Assembly (NCBI GenBank): GCA_001664505.1
Contig: CP011806.1
Span: 4,448,148 to 4,512,147, forward strand
DNA length: 64,000 bases
Direction: 5' to 3'
From: Acidobacteria bacterium Mor1
GTDB taxonomy: Bacteria > Acidobacteriota > Polarisedimenticolia > Polarisedimenticolales > Polarisedimenticolaceae
Part shown: in pieces, positions 14,864 to 46,129 of the stretch
Numbering within the stretch: position 1 is the stretch's first letter
Layout of the letters: every line of letters begins with the position of its first letter
Notes under the pieces: generated by a model
What the model saw: only the letters and a program-made list of their open reading frames with translations
What the model was told of the DNA's origin: nothing
Databases searched by the model: none
Translations under genes and position numbers: made by a program

Positions 14864-15574
14864 CTAGTTTCCCGCCAGCACGCGCAGCAGGTAGCGGATC
14901 TCATCCTCGACGTCACCGGGCTTGCCCACGGTCTGCAGCACTTCACCCCGCAGCACGACGCCGAAGCGCTTGCGCATGCGGTGGACCACCGACTTGACCC
15001 CCGCCTCGCTCATTTGCATCCGCTCGGACAGCTCCCGGTAGGGCAGGGTCGGCTCGTCGCCGGTCAGCAGACCGCGCAACAGCTTGAAGCGGTCGGCCTG
15101 TCCCGCCGCCTCGAACTCCGAGGCCAACGATTCGATGGCGCGCTGCACCACCGTCGAGGCCCAGCGCCGTTCGAAGGTCTTCTCGGCGTCGGCCGCCTCC
15201 GCCGGTTCGTCGGACAACCGCGCCTCGGCGGCCAGGGTATCCAGGGATTCGATCACCTGGTTGCCGCCCCGCTTGGCCGCCCGGCGCCAGTCCCGCTCGT
15301 TGTGCAGGAAGTTCCGCACCGATACCAGCAGGAACGAGCGGAAGCGGCCGGCCTCGGGGCGCAGGGTACCGAGGGTGCCCTTCTCCATCATGGTGGCGAA
15401 GTAGGACTGCACGAGGTCGTTGGCGTCCTCCTGGTTGAATCCCTGGCTGCGCACGAATCCGTAGACCGGATACCAGTAGCCCTCGATCAGATCCGAGAGC
15501 GCCTGGCGGGTCTTCTCGCTCTCTCCGCCGGCGGCGAGCACCATGCTCCAACGAGTGGTCTGAAACTGTGGCAC
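14864..15574 (-). CDS. ECF-like RNA polymerase sigma factor paired with Ser/Thr kinase
   Basis: A 236-aa sigma-70 family protein. The GTG start at 15574 is preferred because GGAGG lies about 6 nt upstream and MPQFQTTRWSMVLAAG is a typical opening. Region 2 is seen in LIEGYWYPVYGFVRSQGFNQEDANDLVQ and FRSFLLVSVRNFLHNE. The C-terminal region-4-like helix-turn-helix (LPYRELSERMQMSEAGVKSVVHRMRKRF) precedes a short tail. It is followed after 9 bp by the membrane kinase gene and is divergent from a secreted subtilase gene, which it may transcribe. It probably belongs to the kinase-linked ECF classes. Confidence 0.85.
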   Translation of the reverse strand: MPQFQTTRWSMVLAAGGESEKTRQALSDLIEGYWYPVYGFVRSQGFNQEDANDLVQSYFATMMEKGTLGTLRPEAGRFRSFLLVSVRNFLHNERDWRRAAKRGGNQVIESLDTLAAEARLSDEPAEAADAEKTFERRWASTVVQRAIESLASEFEAAGQADRFKLLRGLLTGDEPTLPYRELSERMQMSEAGVKSVVHRMRKRFGVVLRGEVLQTVGKPGDVEDEIRYLLRVLAGN

Positions 15575-15749
15575 TGGGGACCTCCGAGCGGATTGTAGGC
15601 GAGGGTTCGCCGAAGCTTGCTCCCCCTGAAGAGAAGCAACCGGTTGCCCGGGTTTCGGCCGAATCGGACGCTGTCGAACGGGATCGGGACAACCGATCGA
15701 ACTTGTCGTATATCCTTCGATGTCATTTCCACATGAACCGGGGGGATCC

Positions 15750-18700: not shown

Positions 18701-19550
18701 TACCCAGGTGAACTTCGACGTCGACACCTTCGAGTCGGGCACCGCCTGGCAGCACGTGGCGGCGGAGAGCACGGCGACCACCGGCGACTGGACCACCGGC
18801 GATCCCGACGGCACCGACTTCCAGCCGGAAGACGACGTGACGCCGGACCCGGGCAGCCTGTGCCTGTTCACCGCCCCCAACGCCGGAGGCCTCGGCACCG
18901 ACGACATCGACAACGGTGTGGTGGTGGCCCGCTCGGGCAGCATCGACCTGACCGGTCATCCGGACGTCCGGGTTTCGCTCTACCGCTGGTTCGCCAACCG
19001 GGATCTCGGCGAGGACGCCGGTGATTTCTGGCGCCTCGAAGTGCGCAACGGCGCCGGCCAGCCCGACGTGTTGCTCGAGGAGCTGGACTTCAACCAGTCC
19101 GAGCCGCGTTGGACCGAGGTTTCCTTCCGTCTGGCCGACTTCATCACGTTGACCAACGACGTCTCGCTCAAGGTCTCGGCCGCCGACGGTGCGGCGACCG
19201 GCAACCTGGTCGAGGCCGCCGTCGACGAGGTGCGTTTCTGGGATCCGGTCTGCAACGACTACGACCCGATTCCCAACGCCGTCGACAGCCTGCGGGCCAA
19301 CCGGTCCGGTAGCGACGTGGTGCTCGACTGGCAGCAGCCGGTGCTCGATCCCGATCACGGGGTGACCACCGACTACCGGGTCTACCGTTCCGAGCTCAAG
19401 TCGGGCGGCTTCAGCGAGCAGCAGCTCGTCCCGGATACCGGTGGCGCGGCCAACTACACCGACACCGGCGCCGCGGCGCCGGCTCCGACGGCCTACTTCT
19501 ACCTGGTCATTTCGGAGAACGCGGCGGGTGCATCGGACACGGCGCCCTAG
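15750..19550 (+). CDS. secreted subtilisin-family (S8) serine protease with C-terminal beta-domains
   Basis: A 1,266-aa secreted protease. ATG 15750 follows GGGGGATCC and opens a signal peptide ending about VSAAE. A propeptide-like region runs to about residue 310. The S8 catalytic triad is Asp341 (EVLDSGFQANHPDF), His365 (SHGTSTYG) and Ser536 (CTSAATPQTAG), with an oxyanion Asn in QSQSNAGN. The residue two before Ser536, normally Gly in GTS, is Cys. After the protease come a P-domain-like region (ITMVYPDPAGTTSASLHRIND; GTWEIEITAVEV), further beta-domains and an Fn3 module ending AYFYLVISENAAG. It is a close paralogue of the subtilase at 43,544 and lies beside a sigma-factor/kinase operon. 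Confidence 0.92.
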   Translation: MPRIGSLLIVIALICSIVSAAELAPNRPQPVAPETAQAADSIQRSALALERDGAVTRIEIRIPGSDGQTRVRELRRTRADVSAQISGAGPAGRAIFAAWDETVGGDRTRWFSYSRDAGDNWIEARPLATDLRLRGGAIAPRQAMPAAPRSFALPSDGGLYIVQFRTIGLPEWRDALESFGGEVLNYLPHNAHIVRFPAGRLAGVQGLDFVERIEPYEPWYRLAADLRDWVQEDPETATTEPTLRLNVMVFGWGADAKAPVADEAARLGARVVENWPNGQILQLELSRGQLQQLVARDDVMWVDRWTPRSDDMDLVREDGGTNFIETNFGRCGQGVRAEVLDSGFQANHPDFDGILFHGSNSESSHGTSTYGIVFGNGARDGDGDAAATGHMPCAEQGIASDYDFLGDRFAHTQELKQAPYFASFQTNSWGNTRTTAYNSITSELDDIVFRLDMAILQSQSNAGNQDSRPQAWGKNVISVGGINHENNLDPADDNWSNSASIGPAEDGRIKPDVNWWYDTIYTTTTGSGYTNFCCTSAATPQTAGITGLMIQMFSENVWGTDPVGASVFERQPRFSTIKALLINNAKQLPFSGLNDDLTRVHQGWGRPSVQIAQERAANSFIIDEEVNLELGDFGRYDLEVPAGETELKITMVYPDPAGTTSASLHRINDVNLQVTSPSGTIYHGNVGLDVGTVSQPGGSPNSVDTVENVFIVNPEQGTWEIEITAVEVNQDGDLDTAETDVTFALVATGGTGVLTQPSEGRVNLDQSDYSCAVPVGIRVIDGNVGSPTVNISIWSDTESTPEVLTLTETQPGSGKYAGELMTTTAAPSADGSLSVSQGDQINVEYIDGDDGMGGIDLPRIDLAVTDCYDLVRDSLTLDDTVGGNGDGLLDPGEWIDLPIVLSSVGDGPAENVRVEVESLSPGVEVRQLQALLPDIPAGTSAASAGDQMRIRIRLDQTCTDPVSVRFRYLADGYESIQDDILPTGTQVNFDVDTFESGTAWQHVAAESTATTGDWTTGDPDGTDFQPEDDVTPDPGSLCLFTAPNAGGLGTDDIDNGVVVARSGSIDLTGHPDVRVSLYRWFANRDLGEDAGDFWRLEVRNGAGQPDVLLEELDFNQSEPRWTEVSFRLADFITLTNDVSLKVSAADGAATGNLVEAAVDEVRFWDPVCNDYDPIPNAVDSLRANRSGSDVVLDWQQPVLDPDHGVTTDYRVYRSELKSGGFSEQQLVPDTGGAANYTDTGAAAPAPTAYFYLVISENAAGASDTAP

Positions 19551-19570
19551 CCTTTGGGTCTGAACTCGAT

Positions 19571-19600
19571 CGACGGGTCCCGCTTCGGCGGGGCCCGTCG
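19571..19600. terminator. strong GC hairpin between convergent genes
   Basis: CGACGGGTCCCGC and GCGGGGCCCGTCG pair over 13 bp with one G-U and a TTCG tetraloop. It lies between the convergent subtilase and DUF3817 stops. No U-run follows, so it may be a rho-assisted or weak bidirectional terminator. Confidence 0.65.
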
Positions 19601-19602
19601 CT

Positions 19603-19908
19603 TCAGCCTTCCTGTCCCACCCGGCCGAGCCAGCGGTCGACGATGAACGGCCCGCCGGGGAACACCGCCCCGATGATCCCGGCCGCAGCCAGCCCCTTAG
19701 AGATCGGCACCTTGTCCACCGCCAGGGCGAACATCAACACCAGGGCCACGAACAGGAAGCCGTGGAGCGAGCCCACCACCGTCACGGCCATGGGCATGCC
19801 CGCCATGTACTTGAGCGGCATCGCGACGAAGAACAGGATCAGCGTCGAGATCCCCTCGACGACGCCGAGGGTGCGCAGGGCCTTGAGGAACCGGAAGTCG
19901 ATCTGCAT
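19603..19908 (-). CDS. DUF3817 family integral membrane protein
   Basis: A 101-aa membrane protein starting at ATG 19908 (MQIDFRFLKALRTLGVVEG). Family hallmarks are LxxLRxxGxxEGISTLILFFVAMPLKY, the GSLHGFLFVALVLMF segment and the closing FPGGPFIVDRWL. Three transmembrane helices are expected. Function unknown. It is divergent from the ECF sigma gene at 20,034 across 125 bp. Confidence 0.85.
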   Translation of the reverse strand: MQIDFRFLKALRTLGVVEGISTLILFFVAMPLKYMAGMPMAVTVVGSLHGFLFVALVLMFALAVDKVPISKGLAAAGIIGAVFPGGPFIVDRWLGRVGQEG

Positions 19909-20033
19909 CGCGTGGATCTCCTGGATAGAAACGCAGGGTATTTCGCGGCGCAGGCCCTCGCCAGCGCTACGGGAAAATTGACGCCACGGGCCGCCGCCCC
20001 GATAATCCAGATCTCGAAGCACCTGAGGGAACC

Positions 20034-20594
20034 TTGTCCGGCGACTTCACCCGTTTGCTCCAGGCCGTGGCCGGCGGCGACCGCGGCGCCGCCGACGATC
20101 TGTACGGCCTGGCCTACGAAGAGCTCAAGCAGATCGCCCGGCGCCAGCTCCGGCGCGGCCGCCCGGGCGAGACCCTGCAGACCACGGCGCTGGTCCACGA
20201 GGCCTGGCTCAAGCTGTTCGAGCACGCGAAGACCGATCCGACCGACCGGGCCCACTTCTACGCCCTGGCGGCCCGGGCCATGCGCCAGATCCTGGTCGAT
20301 ACCTTCCGCGCCGGCCGCGCCGAGAAGCGGGGCGGCGACCGCTATCGGCTCGAGTTTCTCGAGGGGGATGTCCCGGTCGAGCAGCGCGGCGAGGTCTTGC
20401 TGGCGGTCGACGACGCCTTGACCCGGCTCGCCGAGCTCGAGCCCCGGCTTTCCCGGGTCGTGGAGTGCCGCTTCTTCGGAGGTATGACCCAGGAGGAGAC
20501 CGCGGTCGCACTCGGCGTCAGCGAGCGCACGGTTCGTGGAGACTGGCGCAAGGCCAAGGCTTTCCTGACCCGCGAACTTTCGGAGCAGGAGTGA
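20034..20594 (+). CDS. ECF-type RNA polymerase sigma factor (TIGR02999-like)
   Basis: A 186-aa sigma factor starting at TTG 20034 with GAGGGA a few bases upstream. It matches the ECF_sigma70/TIGR02999 group: LLQAVAGGDRGAADDLYGLAYEELKQIARRQLRRGRPGETLQTTALVHEAWLKL in region 2, HFYALAARAMRQILVD, then region 4 as VVECRFFGGMTQEETAVALGVSERTVRGDWRKAKAFL. No anti-sigma gene is next to it; instead the downstream oxidoreductase start overlaps its stop. Members of this group often lack a cognate anti-sigma and may be controlled by expression. Confidence 0.9.
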   Translation: MSGDFTRLLQAVAGGDRGAADDLYGLAYEELKQIARRQLRRGRPGETLQTTALVHEAWLKLFEHAKTDPTDRAHFYALAARAMRQILVDTFRAGRAEKRGGDRYRLEFLEGDVPVEQRGEVLLAVDDALTRLAELEPRLSRVVECRFFGGMTQEETAVALGVSERTVRGDWRKAKAFLTRELSEQE

Positions 20595-33098: not shown

Positions 33099-34730
33099 TC
33101 AGGGTGCAGGAATCGTGATCGGCGTCGAGCTCCAGAAGCAGGCCCACGGACTCAATGCGCAGTCGACCTGGGGGTCGGTCTTGACCTGATACCAGAACGA
33201 AGGCTGGGTGCCGACCTTGAGCAAGGGGCCCCATCCGGGCAGGACCAGTTCGTTGATCGCGGCGTCGCGGATGTCCTGGAGGACTTGCGGAGGCAGCGCC
33301 AGCGGGTAGAACTGCTGATCGACGCGCAGCATCACCGAGTCGAGGATCTGCCCTTGGGGCAGGGGAGCCGACTGGGACAGGTTGAGGCTCATGTCGTTGC
33401 CGCTGCCTGCGCCGCCCCCTTGACCGGAGCCGTTGCCCGATGCCTCGCAGGGCACGCAGGGGTCCGACTCGGGGGTGGGGTGGGTCTCGCTGCTGTAGGT
33501 GACCAGGCTGGGGGTTTCCGGCTGTTCCTCCGGGTCCGGCGGAGGAGTGCCCTGGCTCGAGCCGCTGCGGCCCGAGGCCCAGCAGCCGGTGCTGTTGCCT
33601 CCGGACAGACCGTCGAACAGCCGGTCGATCTCCGCGTTGCAGAGCTTGTACGGACGGCGTCCCTCGGAGAGTACGGTGCACTGCAGCGCCTCGTGCTCCC
33701 AGGGCACCCAGGTGTCCCGGGAGATCGGGTCGATGCGGGGATCGTGCTCCTGAAGGAATGCCATCCAGCCGGTCAGCATCGCCGCCGAGTAGGAGGACCC
33801 TGCCGGCGCGGGCCAGTCGCCGATGCAGAGGCCGTTGCCGGGGATCAGGGCGTTGGGACCCGCCGGTGTTTCCCAGGCGCCCCCGAGCTGCTTCTCGCTG
33901 AAGTACCGGTTGTTGTTCAGCATTCCGGCCGAGGCGACGTTTTCCAGCGCCGCCGGGAACAGCGTGATCTGGTGATTGCCCGCCGCGGCGATGAAGTCCA
34001 CGCCCATGCCGCGCAGGTACTGGATGACCTTCGCCACCTGGCACGCCGCCTGATTCACGTCGCAGGCGGTCGGGGTGCCCGGGTCACGGGTCTCGTAGGT
34101 CCGGCCGAAGCTCATGTTGACCACGGTCGGCAGCAGCTGGCCGTCGGCATCCACGCTCTCGGCCACGCTGCAAAGCCGGGCCAGCAGGTGGAAGTCGTTG
34201 ACCTCCGTACCGAGGGGATCCAGCTCCTCATCGTCCATGGCCGCGAGCAAGACCTCGGTTTGAGAGCCGACGATGTCGCCGATCAGCTTGACCACGCTGG
34301 CGCCGTGGCCGTCGTCGTAGTCGATGGCCACCACGCGCCGGGTGATCCGGGGTGCCGGTCCGGGCTCCGGTTCCGGCTCGGCGCCGTCATCGCCGTCGTC
34401 GCCGAAGGGGTGCTGGGTCGGCGTCATGCTGTAGACCTTCATGTCGAGCCGTTTCGGAACGACAGGGAAGGGTTGACGTCCGCGCAGGGGCTTCGGATAG
34501 GAACTCGGGTTCTCCTGGCCGGCCGCCGCTGCGTCGCAGGCTCCCGGCGGTACCGTCGTTCCGAAGGTGAACGTCCCGTAGTCACCGCAGGGGATGGTGA
34601 AGTCGGTGGCTTCCGCGGCGCAGGTCGGGTCGACCAGCGACCATTCGATCTCGGCGTTTGCCGCCGAGCCCGCCAACAGCGCCGGCACCAATGCCAGCGC
34701 CGGCAAGAGCCGATGGTTGAGCTTACTCAT
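33099..34730 (-). CDS. secreted subtilisin-like (S8) protease with compressed Asp-His spacing
   Basis: A 543-aa exported protein; the signal peptide ends about SAANA. It keeps the subtilase signatures VVNMSFG (203-209), the oxyanion Asn252 in IAAAGNH, and GSSYSAAM with Ser313 as nucleophile. The Asp and His fall together in VVAIDYDDGHGASVV: Asp137 and His142, only 5 residues apart, where a typical S8 enzyme has 30 or more. The C-terminal half is a Pro/Gly/Glu-rich linker and a small beta-rich domain. It is last of the four-gene sigma/CHAT operon and overlaps the anti-sigma-like stop by 8 bp. Whether it is active or a pseudo-protease cannot be told from the sequence. Confidence 0.75.
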   Translation of the reverse strand: MSKLNHRLLPALALVPALLAGSAANAEIEWSLVDPTCAAEATDFTIPCGDYGTFTFGTTVPPGACDAAAAGQENPSSYPKPLRGRQPFPVVPKRLDMKVYSMTPTQHPFGDDGDDGAEPEPEPGPAPRITRRVVAIDYDDGHGASVVKLIGDIVGSQTEVLLAAMDDEELDPLGTEVNDFHLLARLCSVAESVDADGQLLPTVVNMSFGRTYETRDPGTPTACDVNQAACQVAKVIQYLRGMGVDFIAAAGNHQITLFPAALENVASAGMLNNNRYFSEKQLGGAWETPAGPNALIPGNGLCIGDWPAPAGSSYSAAMLTGWMAFLQEHDPRIDPISRDTWVPWEHEALQCTVLSEGRRPYKLCNAEIDRLFDGLSGGNSTGCWASGRSGSSQGTPPPDPEEQPETPSLVTYSSETHPTPESDPCVPCEASGNGSGQGGGAGSGNDMSLNLSQSAPLPQGQILDSVMLRVDQQFYPLALPPQVLQDIRDAAINELVLPGWGPLLKVGTQPSFWYQVKTDPQVDCALSPWACFWSSTPITIPAP

Positions 34731-35541
34731 GGGTCACCTCGCGTCGCTCGCTCCCGTTGCCCGCGGGAAGAATGGTGAGCGTCTTGGGGATGGTTGTGCC
34801 GTTGGAATCGGGGAAAAGAGCCCGCTGGGGGGATCGGTTCGCCGGAAGATCGACGGCGGCGGGAAGTTCGCCGTCGTAGGTCGCCGCGACGATCAACTCG
34901 TGGGTGCCCTTTTCGCCTCCGGCGAAGCGATGGGCCGGCCCGCTGAAGATCGCGGTGCCGCGGCCGAGTTCGACGTCGAGCCCCGGGTCGATCCGCATCA
35001 GGCGCCCGGGGTCGACCCGGTAGAGCGCGAAGAGCATGCCGGCCCGGGGAGCCTGCATCGGCTCGACGGTGACCTCGACCGACGTATCCGGATACGCTGC
35101 CGCCATGCGTTCCCCCGCCCTCTCGGCGGCCATCCCCTGAACCTGAACCGCGAAACTCAGGTCTGCGGGGAACGGCTGGCTCCGTTGGCTCCAGGCAAAC
35201 AGGCCCAGCGGCAGGGCGAGCAGCAGCATGGCCGCGGCGGCCAGCGGAATGCGGCTGCCCGAGCGTCCCGTCGACGCCTGTTCCGCCGGATAGGGTTGCC
35301 CTTCGATGGCGGCTCTGCGCGCCGCCGGTGAGGGCTTCTCGTCGATCACGCCGCCGAGATCCGCCAGACGGCGCCGGGCGTCGGCGTTGCGGCACAGCAG
35401 CGCTTCGATCTGCCGAGTGCTCTCGTCGTCGAGCTGTCCCGCGCGATAGGCCGCGAGGATCTCGTCGTCGAGATCACCGCGTCGCACGTCGGTGTCGAGC
35501 CGTGAGGGCTGCCACAACAGATCGTCATCGGATCGGGTCAT
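34723..35541 (-). CDS. single-pass membrane anti-sigma-like protein
   Basis: A 272-aa membrane protein between the CHAT gene and the subtilase gene. Residues about 25-62 (DDEILAAYRAGQLDDESTRQIEALLCRNADARRRLADL) resemble the anti-sigma zinc-finger helix, with one Cys50 but without the paired Hx3Cx2C. A single membrane helix lies at about 98-117. The extracytoplasmic part has mostly beta-strand character (VEVTVEPMQAPRAGMLFALYRVDP; GTHELIVAATYDG). It overlaps the CHAT stop (ATGA, 35538-35541). Its position corresponds to the zinc-binding anti-sigma gene of the divergent operon, so it is probably the cognate anti-sigma of the 38,312 sigma factor. Confidence 0.65.
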   Translation of the reverse strand: MTRSDDDLLWQPSRLDTDVRRGDLDDEILAAYRAGQLDDESTRQIEALLCRNADARRRLADLGGVIDEKPSPAARRAAIEGQPYPAEQASTGRSGSRIPLAAAAMLLLALPLGLFAWSQRSQPFPADLSFAVQVQGMAAERAGERMAAAYPDTSVEVTVEPMQAPRAGMLFALYRVDPGRLMRIDPGLDVELGRGTAIFSGPAHRFAGGEKGTHELIVAATYDGELPAAVDLPANRSPQRALFPDSNGTTIPKTLTILPAGNGSERREVTHE

Positions 35542-38315
35542 CGCCTGTCTCCTGCCATCGGAACGGCCGCCACGTTGTAGGCCAGCCGGCCGCTCCCGGT
35601 TTCGGGCGCTTCCGAGGGCTCGCTGCCGCGCAGCAGCAGCAGCGCTCCCCAGGAACTGGGTGCATGTCGTTTCATCACGTCGTGTAGGGCCGCGGTGTGG
35701 GCCGCGGGGATGTCTCCGGAGAGCGCGAGCTCCCGGTAGAACGCCCCGTTGAACTCCGAGGCCAGGGTTTCGTCGAGGTCCGCCCGGGCGCCGATCACCC
35801 AGCTCGCGCCTCCCTTGATCAGCGAACCGGCCAGGCCGTAGTGGCCGCTGTCTGCCGTGGCCGGGTAGCGGCCGGAGCCGCAGGCACTGAGGTTGGCGAA
35901 TTCGAGAGAGGGGCGCAGCCCCGCCAGCCCGGCGGCGGTCAGCCAGCCGTCGGCCAGCACCAGCCGGGTCAGGTCGGGGAAGGAGGGTTCGTAGGTTGCG
36001 TGGGCATCGATATGAACCCAGCGTGCGCCGGTCAGCGCCAGGCGCACCGTCTCGGCCGAAGCGCGAGCTCCCTCGAGCACATCCGCATCGGGGAACAGCG
36101 TGCGGTATTCGCCGGCCAGCCGGGAGGCCTGGGCGAGATCGCCGGTGGGGTTGACCACGAACAGCGTGCGGTCGGTTTCGCCCGTGGGTTGCGCGGCACT
36201 GCCGGTGTGAGCCGGCACGTTGGCCACCGTCGTGCGGGTCGCGAGCCACTCTCCGGAGTCGGTTTCGAGGGCGGCCAGCGGGACCTGCTGAAGCGCTCCG
36301 TGCAGCGCGAAGCGGGTCACGTCGCCCAGGTCGTCGGTACGGGGAGCCAGGGCCCGGGCCAGGGGCTCGGTCAACCGGCGCCATTCGGTGGCGTCGACGT
36401 CGCGGCGGTCGAGGGCCTTCTCGATCTCGGCAACTCGTTGCGCGAGAGCGTTCCGTTCGAGAGGAGTACGCCGGTAGAGCGTGGTGCGCTCGCCATCGCG
36501 GCGCAGCAGGATCACCTCGTTCTCCACCGGGAATGCGCGATAGTCGGCGATCTCGCCGCCGGTGCCGAGGGCACCGCAGCCGCTGCGGGATGCGATGGTC
36601 GCCTCGAGCCGACTCATCAACGACTGTCGCGCACCCGCTCGCTGACGCTTACGCGCCGGAGAGGCGGGGACGCTGAGCCGGCTCAGCTCGTCGAGCAGCG
36701 CCTGTTCTTCGTCGCTGTCGGTGGCCGAGTCGCAGACCGAGCCGTCCCGGTCCCGCAGGGTCAGGGCGTCGAGCTGTTCGAGGATCTGCCAGGCCCGGCC
36801 GGGGTGGCCCAGCTCCGTGGCGTTCCGGGCGGCACGGTAGAAGTCTTCCGCCCGGCGTCCCGGTCCGAGTTTCATGTTCCGGTCGGTCGGCCGGGCTGCG
36901 TCTCGTTCGTGGTTGGCCAGAGCCGTTTCGAGGGCGCTGCCGGCTGCCTCGAGATCTCCCTGGCGGCGGAGCAGGGCCGCGGCGCAACTCGCACCCCATG
37001 CCGCCAGGCGGGGTTCGCCGGAATCGGCCACGGCGCGGCACTCGTCGAGGGCCTGCTCCGGTTTGCCTGCCGCGGACAGGTGATCCGAGCGCACCAGCCG
37101 GGACCAGAGCGCAAGCCGCCGGGCCTTGAGGCCGTCCTCGCCCGCCTCGGCGAGGCTCCGCTCGAGCAACGGGCCGGGGTCGCGGCCGAGACGCGCTTCG
37201 ATGTACGCGAGGTTCATCAAGATGTTGGCCCGCTCCGCAGCGCCCAGCGCATTCGAGTTCGCATCGAGGGCGCTCCGCAACAGGCCCTCTGCCTCGTCCA
37301 GAGCAAGGTGGTCGGTCGACGGATCCTGGGCGATCAACCAGCTCAGGGTGATCTGGGCGGCCGGGAGATGCCGGTTGTCGAAGCCGGCTTCGCGGCTGCG
37401 ATCCAGCATGCGGCCTAGCCGTTCCCGGGCCGGCTGCTCGGCACCGATCCGAAACAGCATGCCCGCCTGGCGGTTGGCCACCGCCAGGATTCCCGAGTCG
37501 GCGATCCGTGAGTAGTGCGCTTCGGCGTGTCCCAGGTGTTCCCAGGCTTCGCCGGGGCCGGCGTCCCGCTCCATGGCCAGGTTGGCTCGCTCGAGGGCGA
37601 CGATGGCGGCGGACTCGCTGGCCGCAGGATGGTTGATCCAGTCGGGTAGCGTGGCGAGCAGAGAGCCGGCTTCGCCCAGAGCCGCTTCGGTGCCTTGCTG
37701 GCGCAGGAAGTAGACCGCCATCAGGTCGAAGCGCACGCCGAGCAGCGGATAACCCGCGTCCTCGGCGCGATCGCCGAGGTCGCGTAGCTGCGCCGCCATC
37801 TCGAGGTGGTCCACGCCGCTCCGCAATGCGGGCAAGCGTTGCTGCCACAGTTCGGAGAAGGTCGTCGTATCCGGCTCGAACATGATCGGCCGGCAGGGAA
37901 GGTCCTGACGGCGCCCGTCGTAGACATCCTCGATGGAGCCGCAGACCTCCTGGATGCCGGCGGTCTTGATGCTGCCCAGCGGTACGCCGTAGCAAACGGT
38001 GCTGCCGAAGCGGACCGCAGGAGGCTTCGATTCCGCCGGGGCTGCGTCGCCGCCGATATGTAGCCGGGCTTGCCACTGGCTGGTGTCGACCGAGGGGCGG
38101 GTTTCGATGCAGAGGTCCAGCATGTTCTCGTTGCCGATCACCTTGGGCATCAGGGATCCGTCGGCGGTGAACGATGCATCGCGGTGGCCGCGGAAGGTCC
38201 AGGTCGCATCCTCGAGCAGATCGTTTCCCGGCGCAGGCGCACAGGCCTGCATCAGCAGCAGGAGCGCTGCCCACATCCCCGCCTGTCGACAGGTTCGATG
38301 GGGAGCATGGCTCAC
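35538..38315 (-). CDS. exported TPR-CHAT caspase-like protease
   Basis: A 925-aa protein with a GTG start at 38315 that overlaps the sigma-factor stop (GTGA). The leader MSHAPHRTCRQAGMWAALL runs to Cys25 and resembles a lipoprotein or signal peptide (atypical lipobox). An N-terminal beta-rich region to about residue 190 is followed by TPR-like helices from about 190 to 580. The CHAT domain covers about 600-910, with catalytic His772 (WVHIDAHATY) and Cys812 (FANLSACGSG) in the expected places. CHAT proteins are C14-type cysteine proteases. The export signal implies periplasmic action, unlike the cytoplasmic CHAT of type III-E CRISPR. Second gene of a four-gene operon. Confidence 0.88.
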   Translation of the reverse strand: MSHAPHRTCRQAGMWAALLLLMQACAPAPGNDLLEDATWTFRGHRDASFTADGSLMPKVIGNENMLDLCIETRPSVDTSQWQARLHIGGDAAPAESKPPAVRFGSTVCYGVPLGSIKTAGIQEVCGSIEDVYDGRRQDLPCRPIMFEPDTTTFSELWQQRLPALRSGVDHLEMAAQLRDLGDRAEDAGYPLLGVRFDLMAVYFLRQQGTEAALGEAGSLLATLPDWINHPAASESAAIVALERANLAMERDAGPGEAWEHLGHAEAHYSRIADSGILAVANRQAGMLFRIGAEQPARERLGRMLDRSREAGFDNRHLPAAQITLSWLIAQDPSTDHLALDEAEGLLRSALDANSNALGAAERANILMNLAYIEARLGRDPGPLLERSLAEAGEDGLKARRLALWSRLVRSDHLSAAGKPEQALDECRAVADSGEPRLAAWGASCAAALLRRQGDLEAAGSALETALANHERDAARPTDRNMKLGPGRRAEDFYRAARNATELGHPGRAWQILEQLDALTLRDRDGSVCDSATDSDEEQALLDELSRLSVPASPARKRQRAGARQSLMSRLEATIASRSGCGALGTGGEIADYRAFPVENEVILLRRDGERTTLYRRTPLERNALAQRVAEIEKALDRRDVDATEWRRLTEPLARALAPRTDDLGDVTRFALHGALQQVPLAALETDSGEWLATRTTVANVPAHTGSAAQPTGETDRTLFVVNPTGDLAQASRLAGEYRTLFPDADVLEGARASAETVRLALTGARWVHIDAHATYEPSFPDLTRLVLADGWLTAAGLAGLRPSLEFANLSACGSGRYPATADSGHYGLAGSLIKGGASWVIGARADLDETLASEFNGAFYRELALSGDIPAAHTAALHDVMKRHAPSSWGALLLLRGSEPSEAPETGSGRLAYNVAAVPMAGDRR

Positions 38316-38977
38316 AGGCCGAGCTTCCTCGCGCAACTCTCGATCGTCTGGTTGAGCGACAGCTTCAGCTTGTAGGTCGCCTTGCGGGACCAGCCGGTCG
38401 CCTGGGAGATCTCTTCGGGGGTCAGCCCGTCGACGAAGCGCATCTTGTAGTAGAGGTAGACCCGTGCGTTGCCGCGACGCAGGCAGGCGTCGAGGCGCAC
38501 CAGGGTGTCCTTGTCCAGGTTGCGCTGTTCGGCGTCTTCGACACCGGGGCGTTGATCCGCGCCGAGGAGCGGAAGCGGACGGAAGCGGCGCCGTGAGCGG
38601 CGCCGGTTGCTCGCGATGCCGCAGGCGAGGTTCCAGAAGAAGCACTCCAGCTTGCTGTCGGTTTGCGAGGCGGGGGGAGTGCGCGTCACGAAACTGCGCA
38701 GGACACGCGCGTCGTCCTGGAAGAACAAAACGAAGGCATCGTGCAGCAGTTCTTCCGCATCGAGTCCGGCGGACTGGTAGCGGCTTCGCAGTCTGCGCAA
38801 CAGCTTCGGCGCGAAGCGGTCGTAGAGCCAACCCTTGGAGGCCGTGCAGCCGTCGAGGACCTGCTCCAACATCTCGGGAAGTTCGGAGCGCAAGCCCGGC
38901 CGGCGCAGAGCGTCGTGCAGGTTCCCGCCGATCCCGCCCTCGGCCGCGTGCTGCCTCGCGTCGTCCTTTTCTCGCAT
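38312..38977 (-). CDS. ECF-like sigma factor of the minus-strand CHAT operon
   Basis: A 221-aa sigma-70-like protein, first of its operon. Region 2 is seen in WLYDRFAPKLLRRLRSRYQSAGLDAEELLHDAFVLFFQD and FFWNLACGIASNRRRSRRRF; region 4 in YLYYKMRFVDGLTPEEISQATGWSRKATYKLKLSLNQ. The ~45 residues before region 2 look like an extra N-terminal extension. The start ATG 38977 lies at the edge of the 324-bp region shared with the other operon. Its stop overlaps the CHAT start, so dosage of the two is linked. Confidence 0.85.
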   Translation of the reverse strand: MREKDDARQHAAEGGIGGNLHDALRRPGLRSELPEMLEQVLDGCTASKGWLYDRFAPKLLRRLRSRYQSAGLDAEELLHDAFVLFFQDDARVLRSFVTRTPPASQTDSKLECFFWNLACGIASNRRRSRRRFRPLPLLGADQRPGVEDAEQRNLDKDTLVRLDACLRRGNARVYLYYKMRFVDGLTPEEISQATGWSRKATYKLKLSLNQTIESCARKLGL

Positions 38978-39301
38978 TGTCTATTCACCCGCCGTTGAGT
39001 CGCTGAGACAGAAAGTGTACGTCGCTGTTCTTTTCGGGGGGGAAGTTTTCCGGCCTCCGGACTCCAGAAAAAGTGAGGGAAAAGCGGGTCTTTGACGCGC
39101 CGATTTCGTGCGCCCAAAAGTGGGCGTGACAGGGGGCCGGTTTGTCCCGCGTGCGGGAAGTCGACCCCTGATCGCATCGCCGGCGGCTCTCGGAGGCCGG
39201 CTTTACTTTCCCGACCAACCACCGAAGAATGGCGCGGTGGCTCCTTCCATCAGTATCCGTAGGTTGAGTGACCGGCCCGGCCCGCGGGGCCCGGTGCGGC
39301 G
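38978..39301. promoter_or_regulatory. shared divergent control region of two sigma/CHAT operons
   Basis: This 324-bp stretch carries no gene. It holds two short perfect inverted repeats, CGCCCA-AAAG-TGGGCG (39111-39126) and TCCCGC-GT-GCGGGA (39144-39157), candidate operators. A GC-rich stem (ACCGG and CCGGT arms, about 39271-39294) ends just before the plus-strand sigma GTG and could mask it, as no good ribosome binding site is visible there. I could not fix an ECF -35/-10 pair in either direction. Confidence 0.5.
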
Positions 39302-39898
39302 GTGAACGACGCGCAACGCATCGAAGCGGTCCTGGCCGGCGACCGCGCCGCTGCCGAAGCGTTGATCGAAGACGTCGAGCGACGGGTGCTCGCGATTGCT
39401 CGCGGCCAGTTCCGGCTTTCTCCCGAAGAGAGTGAAGACGTGTTGCTGTCCCTCTGCGAGAAATTGTGGCGGGATGACGCCGCAGCATTGCGACAGTGGC
39501 AAGGCCGCGGTCCCTTCGCGGCCTATGTCTCGGTGATCGCCAGCCGTGCGTGCCTGATGTACCTGCGTGAGAAGAAGCGACGCACCCCGGAGGTTGCGGG
39601 ACTCGAGCTCGATCAAATCGCCGGCGAGCAGGCAGCCACCAGCGACGTGGAACGGAACGAAGAACGCGAGCTGTTGGCTCGCGGATTGGAGCGCCTGTCG
39701 GAACGGGACCGGCACCTGATCCGCCTGCGGTTTCTCGAGGAGCGGGACTACGAGGACTTGACCCGGGAACTGGGGATTTCTTACGGCGCGGCGCGCAAGG
39801 GAGTGCACAGCGCAGTGACCCGGCTGCGCCGCGCTCTGGCCGATCTCGAGCCTTCCTGGTTCAAGGCGGTAACAGGCCGCCGGGGAGAGCATCAGTAG
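39302..39898 (+). CDS. ECF-like sigma factor of the plus-strand CHAT operon
   Basis: A 198-aa ECF sigma factor starting at GTG 39302. Region 2 appears as AAEALIEDVERRVLAIARGQFRLSPEESEDVLLSLCEKLWRDD with FAAYVSVIASRACLMYLREKKRR; region 4 as LSERDRHLIRLRFLEERDYEDLTRELGISYGAARKGVHSAVTRLRR. No strong ribosome binding site precedes it, and a GC stem lies over the start. It is followed after 31 bp by its membrane zinc-finger anti-sigma partner. It diverges strongly in sequence from the 38,312 sigma, so the two probably read different promoters. Confidence 0.88.
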   Translation: MNDAQRIEAVLAGDRAAAEALIEDVERRVLAIARGQFRLSPEESEDVLLSLCEKLWRDDAAALRQWQGRGPFAAYVSVIASRACLMYLREKKRRTPEVAGLELDQIAGEQAATSDVERNEERELLARGLERLSERDRHLIRLRFLEERDYEDLTRELGISYGAARKGVHSAVTRLRRALADLEPSWFKAVTGRRGEHQ

Positions 39899-39929
39899 CC
39901 ATGGACGGCAGAAGTACGAGGAAAGGGCG

Positions 39930-41030
39930 ATGAGTCGCGAGTGCATCCGATTTGCAGAATGGGTCGGCCGGGAGACGGTCGCCGATGCCGGGGAGCGCTA
40001 CGGGTATCTGCGCCATGCGGTCGGCTGCGAGACCTGCCGTCGGGAGTTGACCGAGGCGGTCGCCCTCGGATCTCTCCTGTCCGGGCCTGCTTCCGGACCC
40101 CGGGGAGAGGTCGACCCGGCCGTCCTTGCCGAGAGTCTTTCGTCGGGCCGGGTGCCGGCGGAATCGCTCCACAGTGTCGAGAGCCTGGAATGGACCCTGG
40201 CGTCCATCGAGTCCCTCGGCCCCGAGGTGGAGCAGACGGCAGCAGAGGGGACCTACGAAGCATCGGCGACTACGCGCCGCCGTCTTCGACGTCTGGCGGT
40301 CGATGACCGATCCCGGGGCGGCGGGAGCCGCTGGGTCCCGGCACTCGCGGCGGCCGCCGCAATGATCCTCGCCGTGCTCTTCCTCTGGAATGCACGTCAG
40401 TCCGGCGGGGCCCGGCTGGCCGGCCTCGAAGACTGGCGCGAACCCTACGCGGCCGCCCTGGACGGTCGCGGCTTCGCAGGCGAGTCCCTGTTCGAGATCC
40501 CGGCAGGGGATGGCTCGGTGGTGCGGAGCGGCCCTGCCGGCGAGCTTTCGCTGGAGCCGCTGGAGCCTCGATGGGAGGCGGTCGCAGCCACCCCGGCCGC
40601 CCTGGTCGTCGAAGTCCGGGGGCAGGGGAGCCCACGGCGGCTCGAGGTGCTGCTGGTCGACGCCGCGAGAGAGCTGGTCTGGAGCGGAGAGCAGGAGGTC
40701 GCCGGGGGACCGCTGCGGGTTTCCACCGGGGATCTGCAGCTGGTGCCCGGAGAACGTTATTTCTGGCGGGTCCAGGCCGATCTCGGTGGAGATTTGATCG
40801 CCTCTCCCTTCGTCGGATTCGAGCTTCTTGCAGAGGATCGAGCACGGGAGTATGAAAGGTTGCGGGAGCTAAGCCGCGAGGAGCCGTTGATGGCCGCGGT
40901 GATCAGCGATCGATTCGGCCTGTACGGCGAGGCGGTCCGCTTCCTCGAGGCGTCCAGTGCATCTCCGGAGGTGGTCGAAGCGGGCCTGGCCGCGCTGGCG
41001 AAGAAGCGGGGAGTCGTCCCTGCGCCCTAG
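39930..41030 (+). CDS. membrane anti-sigma factor with zinc-binding (ZAS) motif
   Basis: A 366-aa single-pass protein. The N-terminal cytoplasmic domain has His29-x3-Cys33-x2-Cys36 (HAVGCETC), the zinc-binding anti-sigma signature of RsrA/ChrR-type proteins. A membrane helix lies at about 136-154. The extracytoplasmic half (155-366) has an Fn3-like stretch ending PGERYFWRVQADL. ATG 39930. It sits between the sigma gene and the CHAT gene, the usual place for an anti-sigma. In known ECF systems the outer part is cut by a protease to free sigma; the adjacent exported CHAT is the obvious candidate, which is inference. Confidence 0.8.
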   Translation: MSRECIRFAEWVGRETVADAGERYGYLRHAVGCETCRRELTEAVALGSLLSGPASGPRGEVDPAVLAESLSSGRVPAESLHSVESLEWTLASIESLGPEVEQTAAEGTYEASATTRRRLRRLAVDDRSRGGGSRWVPALAAAAAMILAVLFLWNARQSGGARLAGLEDWREPYAAALDGRGFAGESLFEIPAGDGSVVRSGPAGELSLEPLEPRWEAVAATPAALVVEVRGQGSPRRLEVLLVDAARELVWSGEQEVAGGPLRVSTGDLQLVPGERYFWRVQADLGGDLIASPFVGFELLAEDRAREYERLRELSREEPLMAAVISDRFGLYGEAVRFLEASSASPEVVEAGLAALAKKRGVVPAP

Positions 41031-43440
41031 CATCGCGCTTCGGGCGGGGCTGCTGATCGGTCTGATCCTTTGCTGCGGCGCGCTGCCGGCGGCAGCCGAA
41101 GGGACGGAGTCCGATGAGGAGCGGCGCAAGGCCGCACGGGCCCTGGCCAAACTCGCCTCGGGCTACAGCAGGGCCGGGGATCACCAACTCGCCTTCCAGA
41201 CCTACGCGAAGGCCCTCGCCGCTGCCCGCGAGCTGGGCGACGGCGTGCTCGAAGGGCGGCTCCTGCGAGACAGGGCCCAGACCTTCCGCCGCCAGCAGGC
41301 CTGGGACGACGCCAACCGCGACCTGCTCGCCGCCGTGGAGGCTTTCGAACGCGCCGGCGAGCCTGCACGCGCCGCCGAGGCCCGCCTTCAAACGGCAACC
41401 CGGCTCGCCTCGGAACAGGGGTTGGACGCGGCGCTGGACTTCGTCGACGGCCAGATGGCGATTCTGCGTGAGCTGGACGCGAGGAAGTACCTGGCTCGCG
41501 CGGTGAACCTGCGGGCGCGGCTCCTGGTCAATGCCGGGCGGATGAAAGATGCCCTTGCGGTCTTCGACGCATCCGACCTCGACATGACCGGCCTCGAAGG
41601 CGAGGAGTTGACCGGCCTCGGCCTGCGCGCCTACGCGGAACAACAGAGCGGCCGGTTGGAAGCCGCCCGCGGTTCCTATCTCAAGGTGCTGGAGCGCTCC
41701 TTCCGCAGAGGCGATCACCATGGTGTGGCCTACGCCTTTTGCAACCTGGGCGACGTGGAGGACGAGCTCGGGCTCACCGGCCTCGCCGAGGAGCGGCTCG
41801 ATGCCGCCATCGACCTGCTCGACGAGTTGCGCACCCGGGTCGCCGGCGGCGCGATGGAGCGCACGCGATTTCTCGACGTCCAGATCAGCGCCTACCACGG
41901 CAAGTTGATCAAGTTGATCGACTCCCGTTCTCCCGACCTCGCCTTCGAGCTGGCCGAGGGCTTCCATGCCCGCTCTTTCCTCGAGGTGGTCGAGGGAGCA
42001 GACCGGTCCGGCGGTTCCTCCGGTGCCAGGGAGCAAGCGGTCGGCTCCGAGGAGCAGGCGGCGTTCCGCGAGTTGATGGCGCTCCAGGAGCTGGAGCTGC
42101 GGGAGGGGCTCGACGCCGCCGGCCAGGAGCGCTTGCGGGTCGCCGAGCGGCGTTGGAGCACCCTTGTCCGCGAGGCGCGCCGGTTGAATCAGGATCCGGT
42201 GCCGACGGTGGTGCCCCAATCGATCCCGGAGATTCGCGCCGCGCTTCCCGAGGGCACCGGCTTTCTCAAGTACTGGGTTCATCCCAAGCGCACGGTGTAC
42301 TGGCTGGTCACCCGCGACGGCATCAAGCTGACCCAGGTGCCGATTGCGTCATCGGAACTGGAGGCCCGGCTCGAACGCTATCTGGCGCCGCTGCGCAGCC
42401 TCTCCCGGGCGGAAGACGTCGCGCTGCGGGGAAAGGTGCAGGAGCACCTGGAAGCCGGGCACGAGCTCTACCGGCTGTTGATGGAGCCGCTCTCCCGCGA
42501 CCTGTCCGAGCTGGACCACCTGATCGTCAACCCTCACGACATGCTGTGGCACCTGCCCTTCGGTGCGCTGGTTCGGGAATTGCCGGGCGAGGCCGAAGAG
42601 GGGCAGCCCCGTCCGCTGTTTCACGAGTACGCCGCGGCGGGCTACATGGCCGACGCAGTGGACTTCAGCTACGTCCACTCCGCGACGGTGTGGGCCACGC
42701 TCCGCGCTCGTTCATCGCCGGCAGCCGGCCTGTTGGCCATCGCGCCGTCCCTCGAGCAATCGGAAGAGGCATTCCGAGCCGGCTGGGCACTCGACCCCTT
42801 GCCCTCGGCGCAGCCCGAGGCCACCGCACTGGCCGAGCGCTGGCCCGGGGGGCGTGCGTTGGTCGGGGCCGCGGCGACCGAGTCGGCGGTCAAGGAGCTC
42901 CTGGCCGGCCGCCGGTTGGTTCATTTCGCCACCCACGGCCGGCTGAGCCTGGAGCATCCGGAGCTGTCGGCGGTGATGCTGAGGCCGGGGGCCGGCGAGG
43001 ACGGCCTGTTGCAGGCACACGAGCTGGCGGGATTGGGCTGCGCTGCGGAACTGGTCAGCCTGGCTGCCTGCGACACCGCCATGGGGCAGCTCAGCCGCGG
43101 AGAGGGCCTGGTCGGCCTCGGCCGCTCCTTCCTGCTGGCGGGGGCGCGCAACGTGCTGGTGTCGCTGTGGCGCATCGACGATGAGGCGACTTCGAGGGTG
43201 ATGGACGCGTTCTACGGAAATGTGGCCGGCGGGTTGCCGCTGGACACCGCCCTGGGACGTGCTCAGAAGGGGCTTCAGGAGGGGGTGAGCCGGCGAACGG
43301 TGGTCCTCGACGGCGAGGAGGTCAGCTACGCCCACCCCTATTTCTGGGCGTCGTTCGTCTTGCTCGGCGGAAGTGCCACCGATGTGAACCGGCCCGTCGG
43401 CATCGCGGCGGCGGCGCGAACCCCTCCCGCGCAACGCTGA
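40957..43440 (+). CDS. exported TPR-CHAT caspase-like protease (paralogue)
   Basis: An 827-aa protein; a GTG start at 40957 with GAGG upstream is used. An in-frame CTG at 41020 with GGGGAG upstream would give a classical short signal peptide (SIALRAGLLIGLILCCGALPAAA) and is a fair alternative. TPR-like helices run about 50-400 (RALAKLASGYSRAGDHQLAFQTYAKALAAAREL; VLEGRLLRDRAQTFRRQQ). The CHAT domain covers about 440-810 with His660 (HFATHG) and Cys705 (SLAACDT), both canonical, so it is predicted catalytically competent. It overlaps the end of the anti-sigma gene. The exported location sets it apart from cytoplasmic CHATs. Confidence 0.92.
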   Translation: MHLRRWSKRAWPRWRRSGESSLRPSIALRAGLLIGLILCCGALPAAAEGTESDEERRKAARALAKLASGYSRAGDHQLAFQTYAKALAAARELGDGVLEGRLLRDRAQTFRRQQAWDDANRDLLAAVEAFERAGEPARAAEARLQTATRLASEQGLDAALDFVDGQMAILRELDARKYLARAVNLRARLLVNAGRMKDALAVFDASDLDMTGLEGEELTGLGLRAYAEQQSGRLEAARGSYLKVLERSFRRGDHHGVAYAFCNLGDVEDELGLTGLAEERLDAAIDLLDELRTRVAGGAMERTRFLDVQISAYHGKLIKLIDSRSPDLAFELAEGFHARSFLEVVEGADRSGGSSGAREQAVGSEEQAAFRELMALQELELREGLDAAGQERLRVAERRWSTLVREARRLNQDPVPTVVPQSIPEIRAALPEGTGFLKYWVHPKRTVYWLVTRDGIKLTQVPIASSELEARLERYLAPLRSLSRAEDVALRGKVQEHLEAGHELYRLLMEPLSRDLSELDHLIVNPHDMLWHLPFGALVRELPGEAEEGQPRPLFHEYAAAGYMADAVDFSYVHSATVWATLRARSSPAAGLLAIAPSLEQSEEAFRAGWALDPLPSAQPEATALAERWPGGRALVGAAATESAVKELLAGRRLVHFATHGRLSLEHPELSAVMLRPGAGEDGLLQAHELAGLGCAAELVSLAACDTAMGQLSRGEGLVGLGRSFLLAGARNVLVSLWRIDDEATSRVMDAFYGNVAGGLPLDTALGRAQKGLQEGVSRRTVVLDGEEVSYAHPYFWASFVLLGGSATDVNRPVGIAAAARTPPAQR

Positions 43441-43503
43441 GTTCGGTCGTGCCGCCGGAATCGGCGTACACTCCACACGAAATCTATGCGACAAGAGCAA
43501 GAA

Positions 43504-43524
43504 CCGGCGGGCTCGTGCCGCCGG
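43504..43524 (+). promoter_or_regulatory. 5' hairpin before the subtilase ribosome binding site
   Basis: CCGGCGG and CCGCCGG form a 7-bp perfect stem with a 7-nt loop, ending 8 bp before the GGGGGGGA ribosome binding site. No U-run follows. It could control translation or mRNA stability of the subtilase. Confidence 0.4.
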
Positions 43525-43543
43525 CTCCTTGCGGGGGGGATCC

Positions 43544-46129
43544 TTGAAAATGTTCACGCGTTGGGGTCTGGCCTGCCTGATGGGCCTCCTGGTGGCGGCG
43601 GGAGCCGTCGCTCAGCCGGTCGACGACGGCCGGATCAATGTCTCGGTCGTGGAACAGGGCGGCCGCTACGAGATATGGGTGACCTCCCGGGACCTGGATG
43701 GTGCGGCGCAACGGAAGCGGCTTCACGTCACGCCCCGAGCGGTCGTGGCCCTGGAAAGCGGGGGCGCCGCGACCGAAGCGCCCTTCGTCAACTGGAGCGA
43801 GGCGGGCGAGCGGTTTTCGACCTTCAGCCGCGACGCCGGGGCGACCTGGACCGAGCCGCGGCCTCTGGATAACCGGCTGCGATTGCTGAGCGGGGCCGTT
43901 GCCCCCGGCGAGCCGCTGCCGGCTCCAGTGCAGACGCTTTCGGCCGCCGAGGATCACCGGCTGTTCATCGTGCAGTTCCGCGGCGTGAGTTTGCCCGAGT
44001 GGCGGGCGGTGCTCGAGTCGTCGGGTGTCGAGGTGCTGCGCTTCTTCCCGATGCAGGCGCATCTCGTGCGGATGGATCCTGCCCGGACCGGCTCGGTGCG
44101 CGCCCTCGATTTCGTCCAGCGGGTCGAGCCCTACCATCCCTCCTACCGCTTGGAGCCGTTTCTGATCGACTGGCTGGCTCAGGAGGCGGCGGTCGAGCCG
44201 CAGCGCGTCCGTGTGCGCGCCATGGCCTTCGATTGGGGCCCGGCAGGCAAGGGGCGGATCGCAAGCGACGCCCGGGCCCTCGGCGCCACCGTCGACAGCG
44301 AGTACCCCAACGGCCATGTCGTCGAGCTGACCGTCGATCGAGACCAGCTCCGCCGGCTGGCGGGTCACGACGACACCCTGTGGATCGATCGCTGGGTCCC
44401 GCGTGAAACCGATATGGATCTGATTCGCGAGGACTCCGGCGCCGACTACGTCGAGTCGATCGAGGGCTACTGCGGCCAGGGCGTGCGCGGCGAGGTGTTG
44501 GACAACGGCTTCGATCTGGATCACCAGGACTTCGACGGCGTGGTCCTGCACGGTAGCGGCAACAACCTCGACTTCTTCGCCCAGAGCCACGGCAGCAGCT
44601 CCTACGGCGTCGTCTTCGGCAACGGAAATCGGGACGGCGACGGTGACGGCTCGGCGACGGGCCACATGCCCTGCAATGAGCAGGGGATCGCGTCGGACTA
44701 CAGCTTCCTCGGGGATCGGTTCGCCCACACCCAGGAACTGAAAGAGGCGCCGTTCTTCGCCTCGTTCCAGACCAACTCCTGGGGCGGCAGCCGCACCACC
44801 GAGTACACCAGCATCTCGTCGGAGATGGACGACATCATCTTCCGGCTGGACATCGCGATTCTGCAGTCCCAGTCCAACGCCGGCAGCCGGGATTCCCGCC
44901 CCCAGGCCTGGGCCAAGAACATCATCTCGGTGGGCGCGGTGGATCACGAGAACACGCTGGATACTGCCGACGATTCCTGGGGTGCCGCGTCGATCGGGCC
45001 TGCCGCCGACGGCCGGATCAAGCCCGACGTGCACTACTTCTACGACTTCATCCGCACCACCGCGATCAACGACGGCTACACCACCTTCGGCGGGACCTCC
45101 GGCGCCACGCCGACCGCTGCCGGCGTGCTCGGCCTGATGCTGCAGATGTGGTCGGAGAACCTCTGGGGCACCAACCCCGTCGGTAGCTCGGTCTTCGAAC
45201 GGCAGCCGCACTTCTCGACCCTCAAGGCGCTGCTGATCAACAACTCCTGGCAGTACACCTTCAGCGGCGTCGGCGACAACCTCACCCGGGTGCATCAAGG
45301 CTGGGGGCGTCCCTCGGCACGGCTGGCCTACGACCGGGCGGTCAACAGTTTCATCGTCGATCAGGGCCAGGCACTCGAGGTGAGCGACCAGGTCAACTAC
45401 CTGGTCGAAGTGCCGGTGGGTGAGAGTGAGCTCAAGATCACCATGGTCTACCCGGATCCCCCGGGCACGACCTCGGCGAGCCTGCATCGGATCAACGATC
45501 TGAGTGTGCGGGTGGTCTCCCCCTCGGGCACCGTGTACCACGGCAACGTCGGCCTCGACATCGGCAACTACTCCCAGTCGGGCGGTAGCGCCAACGTCAT
45601 CGACACCGTCGAGAACGTGTTCGTGCAGAACCCCGAGGCGGGCACCTGGACCGTCGAGGTCAGCGCCCAGGAGATCAACCAGGACGGCTACCTCGACACT
45701 CCGGAGAACGACGCGGTCTTCTCGCTGGTGGTCACCGGTGCCTCCGCAACCTCCGGTGTGCCGACTCCCGGCGAGGCGGCCGGCAGCAACCAGCTGTTGG
45801 TCAGCGGCTACGACCGCACCACCGGCGTGTTGTCCCTGACCTACGGCGCCTCCTGCTCGGCCACCGATCACGTTATCGAGTACGGCCCGCTGGATCCGGC
45901 GTCGATCGGCTCCTACGCATGGAGCGGCCAGGAGTGCGGCGTGGGGACTTCGGGAAGCTACGCCTGGGACACCACCACGGCGCCGGGTTCGCTGTTCTTC
46001 GTCATCGTCGGACAGTCCCTCGATGCCGAGGGATCCTACGGGCTGGACAGCGCCGGCCAGGAGCGTCCCGAGGACAGCCTCTCGACCACCTGTCCGCTGG
46101 TCCAGGACCTGAGCCGCCGCTGTGACTGA
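43544..46129 (+). CDS. secreted subtilisin-family (S8) serine protease, CHAT operon
   Basis: An 861-aa secreted protease. TTG 43544 is used because GGGGGATCC precedes it as in the paralogue at 15,750; ATG 43550 is the alternative. The signal peptide ends AGAVAQ. The catalytic triad is Asp320 (VLDNGFDLDH), His349 (SHGSSSYG) and Ser519 (GTSGATPTAAG). Segments such as GIASDYSFLGDRFAHTQELK and FFASFQTNSWG are shared nearly word for word with the 15,750 protease. The P-domain-like part follows, then a C-terminal module ending EGSYGLDSAGQERPEDS, also seen in the 55,287 protein. It lies 103 bp after the CHAT gene, with a hairpin between, so an own promoter or processing is possible. Confidence 0.9.
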   Translation: MKMFTRWGLACLMGLLVAAGAVAQPVDDGRINVSVVEQGGRYEIWVTSRDLDGAAQRKRLHVTPRAVVALESGGAATEAPFVNWSEAGERFSTFSRDAGATWTEPRPLDNRLRLLSGAVAPGEPLPAPVQTLSAAEDHRLFIVQFRGVSLPEWRAVLESSGVEVLRFFPMQAHLVRMDPARTGSVRALDFVQRVEPYHPSYRLEPFLIDWLAQEAAVEPQRVRVRAMAFDWGPAGKGRIASDARALGATVDSEYPNGHVVELTVDRDQLRRLAGHDDTLWIDRWVPRETDMDLIREDSGADYVESIEGYCGQGVRGEVLDNGFDLDHQDFDGVVLHGSGNNLDFFAQSHGSSSYGVVFGNGNRDGDGDGSATGHMPCNEQGIASDYSFLGDRFAHTQELKEAPFFASFQTNSWGGSRTTEYTSISSEMDDIIFRLDIAILQSQSNAGSRDSRPQAWAKNIISVGAVDHENTLDTADDSWGAASIGPAADGRIKPDVHYFYDFIRTTAINDGYTTFGGTSGATPTAAGVLGLMLQMWSENLWGTNPVGSSVFERQPHFSTLKALLINNSWQYTFSGVGDNLTRVHQGWGRPSARLAYDRAVNSFIVDQGQALEVSDQVNYLVEVPVGESELKITMVYPDPPGTTSASLHRINDLSVRVVSPSGTVYHGNVGLDIGNYSQSGGSANVIDTVENVFVQNPEAGTWTVEVSAQEINQDGYLDTPENDAVFSLVVTGASATSGVPTPGEAAGSNQLLVSGYDRTTGVLSLTYGASCSATDHVIEYGPLDPASIGSYAWSGQECGVGTSGSYAWDTTTAPGSLFFVIVGQSLDAEGSYGLDSAGQERPEDSLSTTCPLVQDLSRRCD

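Follow-up and report, generated by a model that had tools for sequence, protein, structure and literature searches.

Proteolysis of a sigma-factor inhibitor has been proposed to free the sigma factor in type III-E CRISPR systems (PMC10028731). There, in Craspase, the TPR-CHAT protease Csx29, the ECF-type sigma inhibitor Csx30 and the sigma factor CASP-sigma are encoded together, as are their counterparts described here, and the TPR-CHAT architecture of Csx29, with its His-Cys dyad, is found here as well. Other features differ markedly. Csx29 works in complex with the RNA-guided Cas7-11, which activates it, whereas the genome that carries our locus has no Cas1; both of our CHAT proteins are predicted to be exported, giving a different compartment, and they are accompanied by a subtilase. 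Csx30 has no membrane anchor, whereas each anti-sigma candidate at our locus has one predicted transmembrane (TM) segment; the small protein of the type D operons described below has none.

In another CRISPR-associated case, the CalpL/CalpT/CalpS triad of type III systems, a protease cuts the anti-sigma factor of an ECF sigma factor (PMC11417357); unlike our operons, it uses a Lon-type protease activated by cA4, has neither CHAT nor subtilase, and is not an envelope system. The RpoE pathway (RseA/DegS/RseP) is similar in having a single-pass membrane anti-sigma factor and an envelope protease in the position of the first cutter that we propose, and an RseP-type M50 protease is encoded in our genome. 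Our operons have no DegS-type gene, however, and the proposed site-1 enzyme would be the CHAT protein. DdvS and DdvA of Myxococcus xanthus are an ECF sigma factor and its cognate anti-sigma factor, whose trigger is unknown (PMC4374960). The DdvA fold aligns with the solenoid and CHAT regions of one of our protein models, but DdvA combines anti-sigma factor and TPR-CHAT-like fold in one polypeptide, whereas our operons have separate genes and a subtilase; no clear fusion of anti-sigma, TM and CHAT regions of the DdvA type was seen among the CHAT proteins examined. Our literature search found no CHAT protein associated with an ECF sigma factor outside CRISPR, although an earlier description is possible, the 2021 ECF re-classification paper lying outside that search.

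The locus lies in a window of 64,000 nucleotides, the whole stretch analysed, from Acidobacteria bacterium Mor1. A first-pass annotation had described two operons on opposite strands around a 324-bp divergent intergenic region, and the open reading frames and sequence, from which our coordinates are taken, place all eight genes as it proposed (Table 1). We call the minus-strand set type A and the plus-strand set type B; the gene order is sigma-CHAT-anti-S8 in type A, compared with sigma-anti-CHAT-S8 in type B. The junctions on the minus strand all overlap as described, by 4 bp (GTGA), 4 bp (ATGA) and 8 bp. On the plus strand the reported 74-bp overlap between anti-sigma and CHAT genes depends on an uncertain CHAT start: it stands for GTG 40957 but shrinks to 11 bp for CTG 41020, which gives the cleaner signal peptide. 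For the type B subtilase, ATG 43550 is the more likely start, itself with some uncertainty, and since this lies 109 bp past the end of the CHAT gene, co-transcription of the two is only putative. No sigma-70-type promoter was found in the intergenic region (38978..39301).

Table 1. Genes and divergent control region of the type A and type B operons (window coordinates).
Feature	Position	Strand	Size and features	Basis
Type A exported subtilase (S8)	33099..34730	-	543 aa	PF00082 E 2.5e-5
Type A single-pass anti-sigma (candidate)	34723..35541	-	272 aa, TM about residues 98-116	TM prediction
Type A TPR-CHAT protease	35538..38315	-	925 aa, GTG start, probable lipoprotein	PF12770 E 2.2e-25
Type A ECF-like sigma factor	38312..38977	-	221 aa	TIGR02937 E 2.3e-5
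Divergent intergenic region	38978..39301		324 bp	common to both operons
Type B ECF sigma factor	39302..39898	+	198 aa	TIGR02937 E 1.1e-22, PF04545 1.1e-8
Type B single-pass anti-sigma (candidate)	39930..41030	+	366 aa	one predicted TM 135-153, HxxxCxxC zinc-finger-like motif
Type B TPR-CHAT protease	40957..43440	+	827 aa, N-terminal signal sequence	PF12770 E 1e-62, TPR_12 7e-13
Type B exported subtilase (S8)	43550..46129	+	859 aa, 109 bp 3' of CHAT	PF00082 E 1.4e-12

Pfam and NCBIfam profiles bear out the families that had been assigned to the CHAT and S8 proteins of both sets and to the type B sigma factor, and are weaker for the type A sigma factor and for both anti-sigma candidates, neither of which has a match in a Pfam scan. 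The type A sigma match (E 2.3e-5) falls below the cut-off when taken alone, and the assignment is backed by paralogues that are 41-44% identical. For the type A anti-sigma candidate there is a weak NCBIfam antisigma match (E 0.0047), the gene is conserved in six operons, and its profile has a sole, non-significant match in the PDB, 3hug_B (E 0.44), which we take to be the mycobacterial anti-sigma factor RslA; these weak profile matches, with the genomic context, hint at an anti-sigma identity. A PADLOC search with the eight proteins gave no family match except to a generic subtilase model, and no CRISPR match.

Type A is a conserved four-gene operon. Its order is kept in three paralogous operons of the same genome (L027, L028 and L029), making four copies, with identities to the window copy of 32-35% for CHAT, 41-44% for sigma, 31-36% for anti-sigma and 36-39% for S8, and also in two related genomes, at L031 (a Thermoanaerobaculia MAG) and L046 (G007, from the host's taxonomic order). 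In most of these operons the gene junctions overlap or are close. The expectation that the four-gene set would recur in relatives is thus borne out for type A, across genera, but not for type B: among 60 relatives we found no good relative of the type B anti-sigma candidate and no close relative of the four-gene unit. Type A is rare, since its CHAT protein was found, at a strict cut-off, in just 4 of 297 genomes of the phylum. In G195, of the same phylum, the sigma and CHAT genes overlap and the contig ends before the remaining genes. Matches to the type A S8 profile in G030, G034 and G087 proved not to be CHAT-linked within the stretches annotated, and L144 6066-8600 (G253) encodes a type A-like protein that has no CHAT domain and no sigma gene nearby.

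The type A CHAT and S8 proteins retain their catalytic residues. In the CHAT protein His772 and Cys812, the CHAT dyad, are invariant in six homologues, as is a lipobox-like Cys25 that closes an N-terminal hydrophobic stretch (6/6), consistent with these proteins being lipoproteins. The S8 protein, predicted to be exported and with many conserved cysteines, has Asp137, His142, Asn252 and Ser313, the D, H, N and S being invariant in six homologues; the catalytic Asp and His are just five residues apart. Its model is of low confidence (pLDDT 55.7), and Foldseek returned nothing for it at E < 1e-3; the VIA matches are subtilases and their relatives (best Z 13.9). In subtilisin the catalytic Asp lies at a strand end and the His and Ser at helix starts, and the model places Asp137 at a strand end and His142 and Ser313 at helix starts. 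In type A the catalytic residues and the fold matches are those of a subtilase; for type B the assignment is by Pfam (1.4e-12).

An AF2 model of the type A CHAT protein (pLDDT 77.8) comprises an N-terminal Ig-like beta-sandwich domain, an alpha-solenoid and the CHAT domain. Its best fold match is Csx29 (E 1.6e-13, Z 26.8, rmsd 5.1, 425 aligned), and it also matches separase and DdvA (E 1.1e-11); the DdvA structures, which bear the title transmembrane anti-sigma factor, align to the solenoid plus CHAT part (8rot_A, Z 20.2, rmsd 10.2, 485 aligned; 8rw5, Z 19.7). Sequence searches of the PDB with the type A CHAT profile and the type B CHAT protein gave TPR or helical matches only, and no Csx29. 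The match of the model to Csx29 is to be read as likeness of fold, not of function. The first-pass suggestion that these operons follow the logic of Csx29 holds as regards fold, but the compartment differs, and DdvA is a closer analogue for an envelope CHAT protein tied to an anti-sigma factor; on the strength of the model comparison, it gives a precedent for a TPR-CHAT-like fold linked to a membrane anti-sigma factor.

How general is this association? The host genome is a single contig of 5,985,000 bases, 99.98% complete, in which profiles match 21 CHAT, 101 sigma-70-type and 33 S8 proteins. No Cas1 was found in it, and by that measure the circuit is CRISPR-free, as had been claimed. A sigma gene lies within 5.5 kb of 17 of the 21 CHAT genes (3.6 expected; rotation P 3e-4), and an S8 gene within 4 kb of six (0.9 expected; rotation P 1e-3). 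Across the 17 operons of this genome, sigma and anti-sigma distances are closely correlated (r 0.90, or 0.95 without type A), compared with 0.51 for sigma and CHAT (0.28 without type A), all of these values being inflated to some degree by kinship of the operons; such tight sigma/anti divergence supports a relationship like that of cognate sigma/anti-sigma pairs.

The survey took in 80 sampled loci of the class besides this genome, 99 CHAT genes in all. The host is taken to belong to Thermoanaerobaculia, phylum Acidobacteriota, from the type A CHAT homologue in a MAG of that class and from the grading of the relatives by kinship to the host. An ECF sigma gene lies within three genes of CHAT in 67 of the 99, most commonly two genes upstream on the same strand, and is absent from that interval in 32. 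A zf-HC2 match is present in 29 of 44 anti-sigma candidates from CHAT loci, 103 of 104 CHAT domains retain the His-Cys dyad (which the type B protein has too), and many of the surveyed CHAT proteins carry a signal-like stretch at the N-terminus, a TM segment at the C-terminus, or both. By a catalytic-domain profile, 11 of the 99 CHAT genes have an S8 gene no more than two genes away. Within-locus shuffling gives a null mean of 6.4 (maximum 11) for these 11, a weaker result than the genome-wide test. The general unit is sigma/anti/CHAT, with the subtilase an optional add-on, and it is CHAT that stays with the sigma/anti pair although the other neighbours vary greatly. The type B core (ECF sigma, zinc-finger anti-sigma candidate and CHAT) belongs to this class-wide family.

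A different arrangement, which we call type D, bears on the role of the subtilase. CHAT is followed by S8 in G004, G018, G021, G029 and G031, and in the four loci that include the upstream part, CHAT is preceded by a sigma gene and one for a protein of ~175 aa with no TM segment. The S8 proteins of G018, G029 and G031 have a signal-like N-terminus as called; it is absent at the called start in G004 and G021. Directly after S8, G018 has SBP_bac_5 and two BPD_transp_1 permeases; in G021 SBP_bac_5 follows, and G029 and G031 have similar-sized genes there, judged by position only. At the type D loci L054 1879-11210, L049 3543-11938 and L129 2048-11350 the CHAT protein has no signal, and a peptide-type ABC transporter lies 3' of S8, with SBP_bac_5 and permeases confirmed in L054, SBP_bac_5 confirmed in L049, and the transporter of L129 assigned by position. 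These neighbours favour a subtilase that would be an exported output linked to peptide uptake.

The explanation that best accommodates the whole, to which we give a probability of about one half, is that CHAT is an envelope regulator controlling the anti-sigma factor and the subtilase is an exported output. Each operon would be an envelope-stress-type signalling unit, in which the membrane-spanning anti-sigma factor would keep the ECF sigma factor bound in the cytoplasm and the exported TPR-CHAT protein (a lipoprotein in type A, a signal-sequence protein in type B) would be located at the outer face of that membrane. Through its N-terminal domain and solenoid CHAT could sense a cue, on which it would inactivate the anti-sigma factor, either cleaving the periplasmic domain of that protein or affecting it in some other way; what is left would be degraded by housekeeping site-2 and cytosolic proteases, freeing the sigma factor. 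The subtilase, made when sigma is active, may be an exoprotease or a processing enzyme. The predicted export of both CHAT proteins would place them in the compartment that holds the outer portion of the anti-sigma factor; this, with the constant linkage, the conserved catalytic residues and the parallels with Csx29 and DdvA, is what points to CHAT as the regulator, while the subtilase is read as output because its presence is optional and because of the type D transporters. Cleavage by CHAT, two specificities, the cue, autoregulation and the subtilase's output role are features that we infer for this circuit, of which autoregulation is unsupported, since the upstream regions of the six type A operons share no bipartite promoter motif above shuffled controls.

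Could the subtilase instead be the site-1 protease that cuts the anti-sigma factor, with CHAT as its sensor, inhibitor or activator? Cleavage of anti-sigma factors usually starts with a site-1 protease, the exported S8 and the anti-sigma periplasmic domain of type A would be in one compartment, and S8 genes lie near CHAT above chance in this genome (6/21, P about 1e-3). Such a two-protease cascade is nonetheless unlikely, given that S8 is absent from most sigma/anti/CHAT loci and that the small regulator of type D lacks a TM segment, so that an exported S8 would be unable to cut it directly, while S8 there adjoins a peptide-type transporter.

It is similarly improbable that CHAT and S8 are mere outputs, whether defence or cell-death effectors or secreted enzymes, of a sigma factor under another signal. 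CHAT proteases do act as effectors in known defence systems, and some of the CHAT genes have other orientations relative to sigma; PADLOC, however, gave nothing beyond the generic subtilase model, the match to DdvA connects a TPR-CHAT-like fold with an anti-sigma factor itself, and the constancy of CHAT beside the sigma/anti pair is not what such a reading would suggest. That CHAT acts without proteolysis, retaining or letting go of the anti-sigma factor as a ligand-binding TPR scaffold, we consider very unlikely: the near-complete retention of the catalytic His and Cys would be hard to explain without catalysis, even though the model has a large solenoid and an Ig-like domain and, for DdvA, an anti-sigma factor with a matching fold, the inactivating signal is not known (PMC4374960).

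If CHAT does regulate the anti-sigma factor, the logic of Csx29, release of a sigma factor by a caspase-like protease, is not peculiar to CRISPR; genes for ECF sigma, anti-sigma and CHAT cluster at the majority of CHAT loci in a single class of bacteria, and these operons, which offer a concrete place to test the target and trigger of CHAT proteases, suggest a route by which recruitment may have given rise to Csx29 systems. A bolder generalisation seems to us rather doubtful, namely that widespread CRISPR-free envelope systems rely on an exported TPR-CHAT protease dedicated to making the first cut in a membrane anti-sigma factor, and that in some lineages an exported subtilase is chained to it in a cascade of two proteases.

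Several loci show variations on these arrangements. A Hydrogenedentota MAG (L032 9545-12016) has genes for CHAT, an ECF sigma factor and one zinc-finger-motif protein side by side, and the CHAT/sigma association is thus not confined to Acidobacteriota. At L026 7952-13783 a 1943-aa CHAT protein has no sigma neighbour, and the 966-aa gene downstream in L023, considered as a possible S8, is not one. At sigma/anti loci CHAT repeatedly has as its neighbour an exported protein of roughly 515-545 aa (L024 6147-7712, L022 11625-13259 and L019 12233-13780); by sequence it looks like a beta-propeller, and Pfam gave nothing for the L024 and L022 proteins. L013 5333-11654 has a tandem pair of CHAT genes after a single sigma/anti pair, and L025 3294-9867, in the same genome as the window, is a divergent version with anti-sigma and sigma genes on one strand and S8 and CHAT on the other. 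Finally, the window itself has a region with no CHAT gene (12242-20594), where a TPR-containing protein kinase is encoded at 12242-14776, sigma factors at 14864-15544 and 20034-20594, and between these two, at 15912-19550, an S8 protease that belongs to the same family as the type B subtilase.
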